This document shows, one piece after another, positions 27,904 through 45,010 of a stretch of DNA of 64,000 nucleotides (its first letter is position 1; the number at the start of each line of letters is the position of its first letter). The notes beneath the pieces were generated by a model, which did not search any database, was not told where the DNA came from, and saw only the letters and a program-made list of their open reading frames with translations. Origin of the DNA: Chloroflexota bacterium (GTDB taxonomy: Bacteria > Chloroflexota > Dehalococcoidia > Bin125); assembly GCA_009838915.1 (NCBI GenBank), contig VXQT01000034.1, positions 37,896 to 101,895 of the forward strand, in the 5' to 3' direction. The position numbers and the translations under genes were made by a program.

Positions 27904-27995
27904 GGAGAGGTGTCCGAGTGGCCGAAGGAGCCGATCTCGAAAATCGGTAGGTGCGGCGACGTGCCTCGTGGGTTCGAATCCCACCCTCTCCGCCA
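27904..27995 (+). tRNA. tRNA-Ser (anticodon CGA)
   Basis: This is a 92-nt class II tRNA. The acceptor GGAGAGG pairs with CCTCTCC, the discriminator is G, and CCA is encoded. The anticodon loop CTCGAAA gives CGA, reading UCG. The long variable arm expected of serine tRNAs is present, and the T loop is GTTCGAATC. Confidence 0.97.
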
Positions 27996-28019
27996 GTTTG
28001 CATATCGGCCACCGTCTCC

Positions 28020-28109
28020 GGAGAGGTGCTGGAGTGGACGATCAGGCACGCCTGGAAAGCGTGTAGGGCTGCAAGGCCCTCGTGGGTTCGAATCCCACCC
28101 TCTCCGCCA
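28020..28109 (+). tRNA. tRNA-Ser (anticodon GGA)
   Basis: This is a 90-nt class II tRNA with the same acceptor and T arm as its neighbour 24 bases upstream, and CCA encoded. The anticodon stem CACGC/GCGTG encloses CTGGAAA, anticodon GGA, reading UCC and UCU. It is probably co-transcribed with the tRNA-Ser(CGA). Confidence 0.97.
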
Positions 28110-42720: not shown

Positions 42721-43815
42721 TCAGCCGCCGGCAACGGCGCTGCTGATCAGGCCGCCCAGGGCCTCGGTGCCGAGGGGTGCGTCGGCATCGGCGGCGAGGT
42801 CGGCGGGGCGGTGGCCGGCGGCGAGGATGTCGATCACGGCTTGCTCGATGGTGGCGGCTTCCTCTTCGAGGCCGAAGGAGTAGCGCAGCATCAGGGCGGC
42901 GCTGAGGATCATGGCCATCGGATTGGCGACGCCCTGGCCGGCGATGTCGGGCGCGGTGCCGTGGATCGGTTCGAAGAGGCCGAGCGTCGAGCCGTCGTCG
43001 GCCGCGCCGAGCGAGGCGGAGGGCAGCATGCCCATCGAACCGGCGAGCATCGAGGCTTCGTCGGTGAGGATGTCGCCGAACATGTTCTCGGTCACGATCA
43101 CGTCGAAGTAAGACGGATGGCGGATCAGGTCCATGGCGCAGGCGTCGACGAGCCGGTGCTCGAGCGTCACGTCGGGGTAGTCTTTGGCGATCTCCTCCGT
43201 GATCTCACGCCACATACGCGAGGTGTCGAGGATGTTGGCCTTGTCGACCGAAGTGAGCAGCTTGCGCCGCCCGCGGGCGGTCTCGAATCCGAGCCGGACG
43301 ATGCGTTCGACCTCTTCCTCGGAGTAGGCGAGCGTGTCAACCGCCTTGCGCTGGCCGGCTTCCTCCCAGCGTCGCTGCGGTTCGCCGAAGTAGATGCCGC
43401 CGGTCAGCTCGCGCAGGACGACCATGTCGACCGCCTCGACGGTCTCGCGCTTGAGCGGCGTGGCGTCGGCGAGGATGGGCAGCATCTTGACCGGCCGGAT
43501 GTTGGCGAACAGGCCCAGTCCCTTGCGCAGCCCGAGGATCGCCTGCTCCGGTCGGACCGTGGCTTTCGGGTCGTCCCACTTGGGGCCGCCGACCGCACCG
43601 AACAAGACGGCGTCCTGGGCTCGGCACATGTCCAGCGTCTGGTCGCGCAGGGCGGTGCCGTGGGCATCGATTGATGCGCCGCCGACGAGATCCTCGGTGT
43701 ACTCGAAGGAGTGGTCGAAGCGTCCGCCGAGGGCGTCGAGCACGCGAACCGCTTGCCCGATCACTTCGACGCCAATGCCGTCACCGGGCAAGAGCGCAAT
43801 CCTGTAGTGGGCCAT
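42721..43815 (-). CDS. leuB: 3-isopropylmalate dehydrogenase
   Basis: This 364-residue NAD-dependent beta-decarboxylating dehydrogenase catalyses the third step of leucine synthesis. Family features are LLPGDGIGVEVIGQAV, GAVGGPKWD, NIRPVK, LRELTGGIYFG, DKANIL and the metal/NAD region GSMGMLPSASL and EPIHGTAPDIAGQGVANP. It lies 39 bp upstream of the fused carboxylase gene on the same strand. leuD is nearby upstream, with two tiny genes between. Confidence 0.96.
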   Translation of the reverse strand: MAHYRIALLPGDGIGVEVIGQAVRVLDALGGRFDHSFEYTEDLVGGASIDAHGTALRDQTLDMCRAQDAVLFGAVGGPKWDDPKATVRPEQAILGLRKGLGLFANIRPVKMLPILADATPLKRETVEAVDMVVLRELTGGIYFGEPQRRWEEAGQRKAVDTLAYSEEEVERIVRLGFETARGRRKLLTSVDKANILDTSRMWREITEEIAKDYPDVTLEHRLVDACAMDLIRHPSYFDVIVTENMFGDILTDEASMLAGSMGMLPSASLGAADDGSTLGLFEPIHGTAPDIAGQGVANPMAMILSAALMLRYSFGLEEEAATIEQAVIDILAAGHRPADLAADADAPLGTEALGGLISSAVAGG

Positions 43816-43894
43816 GTAGTGCCGATCCTCGTCGTGGGCTAATCGTGGGCTAGTCGTCGCTTTGGCGCTCCTCCGGAGCGCGTTCGGGAGAAAC

Positions 43895-44056
43895 TCAACA
43901 GCCGGGCGCGCCGTAGTCGCCGCAGCACGTCTGTCGCTCGGTCAGCCTATTCCACCAGATCGCCAGCACGCCGGTGACCAGGCGTAGACCGTGACGGCCG
44001 TCCCTGCGCAGGTTCTCAACAGCGTCCAGGAAGGAGGGGCGTGGTCGCTTGTTCAT
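43895..44056 (-). CDS. Cys-rich microprotein ending CCGDYGAPGC (copy 2)
   Basis: This 53-residue protein starts MNKRPRPSFLDAVENLRRDG and ends RQTCCGDYGAPGC-stop. It shares the Cys-Cys-Gly-x-Tyr-Gly-x-Pro-Gly-Cys C terminus and an N-terminal basic helix with NLRR with the microprotein 58 bp upstream. The middle (LRLVTGVLAIWW) is hydrophobic. A longer in-frame extension to 44134 covers the tail of the other gene and is unlikely. I do not know this family. The terminal three cysteines could bind metal, form a disulfide or be modified. Confidence 0.65.
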   Translation of the reverse strand: MNKRPRPSFLDAVENLRRDGRHGLRLVTGVLAIWWNRLTERQTCCGDYGAPGC

Positions 44057-44114
44057 CGTTGCACTAGTCCTCTTCCGCCTTGAGGCGCTCGTCCCGAGCG
44101 CGTTCTCCGGACAC

Positions 44115-44279
44115 TCAACAGCCGGGATCGCCATAGTTGCCGCAGCAGTTCTCGACGTTTTTCATTTTGATCAAGGTGTTCTTGATCAAGCCATAGAGCG
44201 CATGGCGCCGGCCGATCGAGCGGCGCAAATTGGTGATGCTCTCGCGGACGGACGGGGTCGGGTGCTGCTGCCTGGGCAT
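44115..44279 (-). CDS. Cys-rich microprotein ending CCGNYGDPGC (copy 1)
   Basis: This 54-residue protein starts MPRQQHPTPSVRESITNLRR and ends VENCCGNYGDPGC-stop. The final ten residues match the neighbouring microprotein at eight positions, and the stop codons lie in matching sequence (ACTCAACAGCCGGG on the plus strand in both). The middle is basic and hydrophobic (LYGLIKNTLIKMKN). A weak AGG-containing ribosome-binding site precedes the ATG. It lies between leuD and leuB, all on the same strand. Function unknown; the duplicated, strictly kept C terminus argues for a real coding gene. Confidence 0.65.
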   Translation of the reverse strand: MPRQQHPTPSVRESITNLRRSIGRRHALYGLIKNTLIKMKNVENCCGNYGDPGC

Positions 44280-44391: not shown

Positions 44392-44982
44392 CTAGACGGT
44401 TGCCGGCTTTGTCGAAGGTCGATTGGACTCGTACTCGGCGATCAGGTCGTCGTGCTCCAGCGTGAGCGAGATATCGTCGAGGCCGTTGAGCAGACAGTGC
44501 TTGACGAACGGCGCGATCTCGAACGAGCGTGACCAACCGCCCGGCGCGGCGACGGTCTGCTCTTCGAGATTGACCGTGATCGGCGTGTTCGACTCTGCCT
44601 CGACCATGCGCATCAGCTCTTCGACATCGGGCTGCGAAAGCTGAATCGTGAGCAGGCCCATCTTGGCCGAGTTGTTGCGGAAAATGTCGGCGAAGCTGGG
44701 CGCAATCACGGCCCGGACGCCCATGCCCTGGATCGCCCAGACGGCGTGCTCGCGTGAGGAACCGCAGCCGAAGTTGGGCCCCGCCAGCATCACGCTGGCG
44801 CCGTCGTACTGCGGCTGGTTGGTGACGAACTCGGGATCCCTGGCCCAGGCCTCGAAGGCGAACGGACCGTAACCGGTACGCTCGATCCGCTTGAGGTACT
44901 TGGCCGGGATGATCTGGTCGGTGTCGACATCGGCGCGGTCGAGCGGCAATCCGGTGCCGCTGAAGGTCGTGACGGGTTCCAT
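44392..44982 (-). CDS. leuD: 3-isopropylmalate dehydratase small subunit
   Basis: This 196-residue swivelling-domain partner of LeuC has the family phrases DVDTDQIIPAKYLKRI, GPNFGCGSSREHAVWAI, VIAPSFADIFRNNSAKMGLL and the C-terminal HDDLIAEYE. The ATG at 44982 has GGAG six bases upstream; the upstream in-frame TTG is not needed. The gene is separated from leuC by about 28 kb but stands in line with leuB. Confidence 0.96.
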   Translation of the reverse strand: MEPVTTFSGTGLPLDRADVDTDQIIPAKYLKRIERTGYGPFAFEAWARDPEFVTNQPQYDGASVMLAGPNFGCGSSREHAVWAIQGMGVRAVIAPSFADIFRNNSAKMGLLTIQLSQPDVEELMRMVEAESNTPITVNLEEQTVAAPGGWSRSFEIAPFVKHCLLNGLDDISLTLEHDDLIAEYESNRPSTKPATV

Positions 44983-45010
44983 GGGTTGCTCCAATCCTTG
45001 GCTTGGGAGT

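Follow-up and report, generated by a model that had tools for sequence, protein, structure and literature searches.

Two short, adjacent frames lying between leuD and leuB in the 64,000-nucleotide stretch of Chloroflexota DNA analysed here (the window) are, with a probability that we put at about 95% on sequence grounds, tandem members of a new family of small selenoproteins carrying the motif CCGxxGxPGC-U. We refer to them as A and B. This reading follows from four observations taken together: a TGA-only codon after the motif, a covarying hairpin downstream of it, the presence of selenocysteine (Sec) machinery, and the existence of homologues with cysteine at the same site.

The two frames and the codon after the motif

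Both frames are present on the minus strand, as the first-pass annotation had described them, each with a CCGxYGxPGC motif. Gene A (44064..44279) starts at the ATG at 44279 and runs for 54 codons (44115–44279, last residues ENCCGNYGDPGC) through the motif CCGNYGDPGC (44118..44147) to a TGA at 44115..44117, the candidate codon for U55. Reading through this codon adds the tail VSGERARDERLKAEED, ends at the TAG at 44064–44066 and gives a predicted protein of 71 residues. Gene B (43850..44056) has its ATG at 44056, starting 7 nt past the TAG of A; the longest open reading frame in this frame begins further upstream, at 44134. Its first 53 codons (last residues QTCCGDYGAPGC) end with the motif CCGDYGAPGC (43898..43927) and are followed by a TGA at 43895..43897 (candidate U54), the tail VSPERAPEERQSDD and a TAG at 43850–43852, for a total of 68 residues. 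The upstream neighbour on the same strand is leuD, the isopropylmalate isomerase small subunit (44392..44994; Aconitase_C, PF00694, 1.4e-28), and the downstream neighbour is leuB, isopropylmalate dehydrogenase (42721..43815; Iso_dh, PF00180, 1.7e-133), which terminates on an ordinary TGA stop. Elsewhere in the window, at 27904–28106 on the plus strand, there are two tandem tRNA genes that bear no relation to A and B.

Are these frames coding? In the 2.87-Mb genome the pattern C-C-G-x-Y-G-x-P-G-C occurs twice, both times at A and B, and the reversed pattern does not occur at all, a control that disposes of the matches being an artefact of the pattern scan. Within the genus, the median dN/dS of the parts upstream of the TGA is 0.10 for A and 0.25 for B, with an excess of third-position changes, indicative of purifying selection. 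The earlier suggestion that the two are coding paralogues thus holds, and with it the coding constraint that had been proposed as a check. A third tandem paralogue (median dN/dS 0.11), with the tail TGPPDAQDERP, lies between the other two in three sister genomes (loci L003, L009 and L010 of G001, G007 and G008) and is absent from the window genome.

What, then, is the TGA that follows the motif? It had been taken for a stop, with the motif as the C terminus. Stop codons in these GC-rich genomes are often TGA, that of leuB among them. However, when the codon after the motif was counted without restriction in the first set of loci, 122 of the 126 matches had TGA, three had TGC and none had TAA or TAG; the lone TGG (L075) lies in a different, unrelated frame that fits the pattern by chance. 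When the GTDB contig set was scanned with TAA, TAG, TGA or TGG admitted at this position, every genuine member had TGA. The same codon was found in all 66 members read from three further phyla and in three extra members of variant spelling or position, four other loci having been missed by the patterns used. In all, TAA and TAG are entirely missing at this position in more than 180 members from four phyla. The downstream stops of the same frames are, by comparison, mixed (73 TAG, 28 TGA and 19 TAA), so that these genomes show no simple preference for TGA.

Beyond the TGA the frames of A and B remain open for another 14–16 codons before the TAG, and among orthologues the variation in the tail codons that precede the hairpin is mostly at third positions. 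Three homologues have a natural TGC in place of the TGA, with the frame continuing: L124 (CCGNHGQPGCC), and L125 and L128 (CCGHPGEPGCCE-stop). The genome of L128 (G101) has no selB. In L125 the hairpin of its Sec-form relative L139 appears to have been kept in decayed form, as if caught after a change from Sec to Cys. We consider it very improbable that the TGA acts as a normal stop, leaving the proteins to end in the cysteine motif, given the absence of other stops, the conserved tail codons, the TGC substitutions and the covarying hairpin described below. The motif is instead internal, followed by conserved coding sequence and hairpin. Tryptophan as the meaning of TGA is likewise excluded: leuB ends on TGA, the genome has SelB along with a canonical tRNA-Sec, and the residue substituted at the site is Cys, never Trp. 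We conclude that the TGA of A and B is almost certainly decoded as selenocysteine and that both predicted proteins extend 14–16 residues beyond it.

Selenocysteine machinery and the downstream hairpin

Can the window organism insert selenocysteine? Its genome contains SelA (528 bits), SelB including the C-terminal part (348 bits in all) and a tRNA-Sec with the anticodon TCA (70.8 bits). It also contains SelD, which is itself a selenoprotein, with an in-frame TGA in the N-terminal loop (ARCGGUGSKFGPE; minus strand, positions 390–1340 of locus L122, corresponding to 22895–23836 of contig C24 of the window genome, G000). From this complement, including a Sec-containing SelD, UGA is very probably read as Sec in this organism. 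Across 301 Chloroflexota genomes selB was found in 36 of the 37 that carry the Sec form, against 198 of the 261 without the family (Fisher p = 9e-4, genome kinship being ignored), and in 38 of all 40 family-bearing genomes. The one Sec-form genome without it, G114, is a fragmented assembly, and other members of its genus do carry selB. Two of 20 assorted carriers also lack a clear selB; in these and in G114 the absence may reflect incomplete assemblies.

Each gene carries a hairpin past its TGA, GCGCTCG-GGA-CGAGCGC in A (44085..44101, minus strand) and GCGCTCC-GGA-GGAGCGC in B (43865..43881, minus strand), and both satisfy the published constraints on bacterial SECIS elements: a loop of 3–9 nt starting 16–37 nt from the TGA, a stem of 4–16 bp and a G at either of the first two positions of the loop (PMC13188914). 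Throughout the family the loop starts 16–23 nt past the TGA, is usually 3–5 nt long and nearly always has G at position 1 or 2. Pairing in the five-pair helix reaches 97% across 33 diverse hairpins and falls to 38–46% when the partner strand is slid by 1–3 bases. Covariation in the same set amounts to 52 doubly changed cells as against 10.4 in shuffles, none of 500 shuffles reaching as high a value.

Since the register of each hairpin in this set was the one with the longest stem, a choice biased toward high pairing, the published constraints were applied equally to real and control sites. At a folding energy of −5 or below, 90% of 183 family sites conform to the model, compared with 27% of 676 control TGA stops taken from elsewhere in those loci; at −7.5 or below the figures are 61% and 13%. 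About 10% of the family sites fall short of the strict hairpin model. Taken as single sequences, the two window hairpins give weak fold z-scores (−0.76 and −0.85).

Is the hairpin conserved as RNA or as coding sequence? In 25 members no more than four codons separate the TGA from the end of the frame, which places the hairpin almost wholly past the coding sequence, and it is kept in 23 of them; at L047, where TAG directly follows TGA, the hairpin is still present. Its retention where the frame ends before it shows that it is conserved as RNA. By its covariation, position and shape, we conclude, the hairpin is a bacterial SECIS element.

Distribution and novelty of the family

The first-pass annotation had asked for the motif in related genomes. 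Among 20 genomes of the same bacterial family, 18 carry the pattern in one to three copies, with no reversed-pattern background, and the GTDB contig set yields 84 stretches that contain it. By profile search the selenoprotein family is present in 40 of 301 Chloroflexota genomes, and in 13 of 246, 40 of 395 and 47 of 396 genomes of the phyla around the Thermodesulfovibrionales, Desulfonatronovibrio and Actinomycetes carriers, respectively. It thus occurs in 5–13% of genomes in the four phyla sampled (Chloroflexota, Actinomycetota, Desulfobacterota and Nitrospirota), the phylum names being taken from the titles of public MAG contig records. In an alignment of 81 relatives, on which the motifs of both A and B were judged, the columns C C G, G, P G C and the Sec/Cys site are invariant, and two upstream Asn are more than 90% conserved. 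Only the x positions and the Tyr vary, the latter being replaced by H, P, D or others. The claim of strict conservation over the last ten residues therefore stands for the CCGxxGxPGC core and fails for the Tyr. The proteins are about 45–90 residues long.

Has this family been described before? Pfam and NCBIfam gave no family match up to E = 10, PHROGs and Rfam yielded nothing useful, and sequence and fold searches of the PDB gave no meaningful match. A 2026 catalogue of prokaryotic selenoproteins lists 119 families and subfamilies (PMC13188914), none with the CCGxxGxPGC-U motif. The motif strings returned no description from the open literature, and the titles and abstracts of papers on selenoproteins of Chloroflexi and Dehalococcoidia describe no such family. 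The earlier remark that no described family has this ending is borne out by these searches. Judged from sequence comparison with Pfam, NCBIfam, the 2026 catalogue and the open literature, the family appears to be new within a known class, the bacterial selenoproteins.

Of the known families, the KCU-star selenoprotein (DUF466, NF033934) is similarly small and bacterial, with a Cys-Sec pair near its C terminus (PMC13188914), and the L047 member of the new family likewise ends right after the Sec. However, NF033934 gave no match up to E = 10, and in the new proteins the Sec is preceded by CCGxxGxPGC and usually followed by a tail. A vicinal Cys-Sec is shared too with SaoC and SaoL of the Sec-assisted organometallic system and with MbdU, small or metal-related selenoproteins, but NF040734, NF040728 and NF045648 were unmatched up to E = 10 and there is no operon in common; nor did other NCBIfam families with a Cys-Sec motif give a profile match up to that value. 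The hypothetical selenoproteins DG, DW and DF from deep-Sep (PMC12013277) resemble the new family in having been found computationally and in being without known function; NF049953, NF041197 and NF049942 were nevertheless unmatched in the NCBIfam search, and DG and DW are catalogued with the motifs GUxG and GxU (PMC13188914).

Small size and UGA would hide such genes doubly from annotation, and so the family has gone unlisted until now, widespread as it is in abundant uncultured bacteria of soil, sea and sponges. Its members would add the Sec motif CCGxxGxPGCU to the known selenoproteome, suggest a further reason for these lineages to retain Sec machinery despite its cost, and offer a module of roughly 50 residues in which to study Cys-Sec chemistry outside the thioredoxin fold.

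Possible function and gene neighbourhood

How might such a protein work? SelB, directed by the SECIS hairpin, would decode the TGA after CCGxxGxPGC as selenocysteine, and translation would continue to the TAG. The product, probably cytosolic, would combine an N-terminal part that is basic and helical with a loop Cys-Cys-Gly-x-x-Gly-x-Pro-Gly-Cys-Sec that holds two vicinal pairs, Cys-Cys and Cys-Sec. An AlphaFold2 model of moderate confidence (pLDDT 72.6, pTM 0.50) has helices at residues 11–20, 24–41 and 58–70, with the motif in a connecting loop. The selenolate could attack an oxidant or a disulfide, a selenenylsulfide could then form between the Sec and the neighbouring Cys, and the Cys-Cys pair, together with a general reductant of the cell, could restore the selenolate. 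In animal thioredoxin reductase, whose C terminus is Gly-Cys-Sec-Gly, the adjacent Cys and Sec form just such a selenenylsulfide. The shared position of the pair near the C terminus offers a possible working analogy only; the new family is without the flavoprotein domain and bears no sequence relation to the reductase. From the chemistry of the motif and the loosely stress-related neighbours, we give a thiol/selenol redox cycle roughly even odds.

The view that the cysteine motif is the functional part is upheld, the function itself being deduced. Metal binding, a redox site or a modification substrate had been proposed for it, and the first two are the right class of guess. The protein might bind, carry or detoxify a soft metal, a metalloid or selenium, with coordination by the Cys-Cys and Cys-Sec pairs and help from His-rich tails. 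Four conserved Cys/Sec ligands fall within eleven residues, 16 of 124 members from several lineages have His-rich stretches at either end (for example, HDHHHGHDHGHGHDHH), and other families with a Cys-Sec motif, namely SaoL, SaoC, HgcA and MbdU, belong to organometallic systems (PMC13188914). On the other hand, no gene for a metal transporter, regulator or chaperone recurs among the neighbours examined, most members lack a His-rich tail, and Sec would be unusual as a plain structural ligand. We regard this role as possible, though rather unlikely.

Small, Cys-rich proteins in one to three tandem copies recall the precursor peptides of modified natural products, and selenobacteriocins are included in the selenoprotein catalogue (PMC13188914). 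Yet no maturase, peptidase or exporter recurs among the neighbours examined, and the core hardly changes from one phylum to the next, which sets it apart from bacteriocin cores. A precursor role is accordingly exceedingly unlikely. More tentatively, and with a probability that we would set well below even, this is a near selenium-obligate family, in which Sec is almost never Cys, forming a common selenoprotein in parts of the four phyla, with a chemistry (redox relay, soft-metal capture or selenium delivery) unlike that of any known small protein.

Do the leucine genes offer a clue? The pair immediately precedes leuB on the same strand, as leader peptides with an attenuator hairpin regulating leuB would. 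But the peptides have no run of leucines, the hairpin lacks a T-run and is tied to the TGA at a fixed 16–23 nt, and leu genes adjoin the family in some lineages only; the chance of such a role is close to nil. The arrangement leuD-x-leuB is conserved in the genus of the window and is also seen in some other Chloroflexota and Actinomycetota. In soil Chloroflexota the neighbours are instead YajQ (DUF520), HisA, an unmatched small protein and a zinc dehydrogenase, and in Desulfobacterota and Nitrospirota photolyase, PNPOx, lipocalin, pirin, MoeA and others. Neighbours that differ in this way outside some lineages rule out a function in the leucine operon, and leuD and leuB, local as they are to those lineages, are not general partners. 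With no general partner among the neighbours, the protein probably works on its own or draws on a universal reductant. Within the Desulfobacterota set (L178–L207), photolyase, lipocalin, pirin and DUF523/DUF1722 recur, which looks like a theme of light or oxidative stress.
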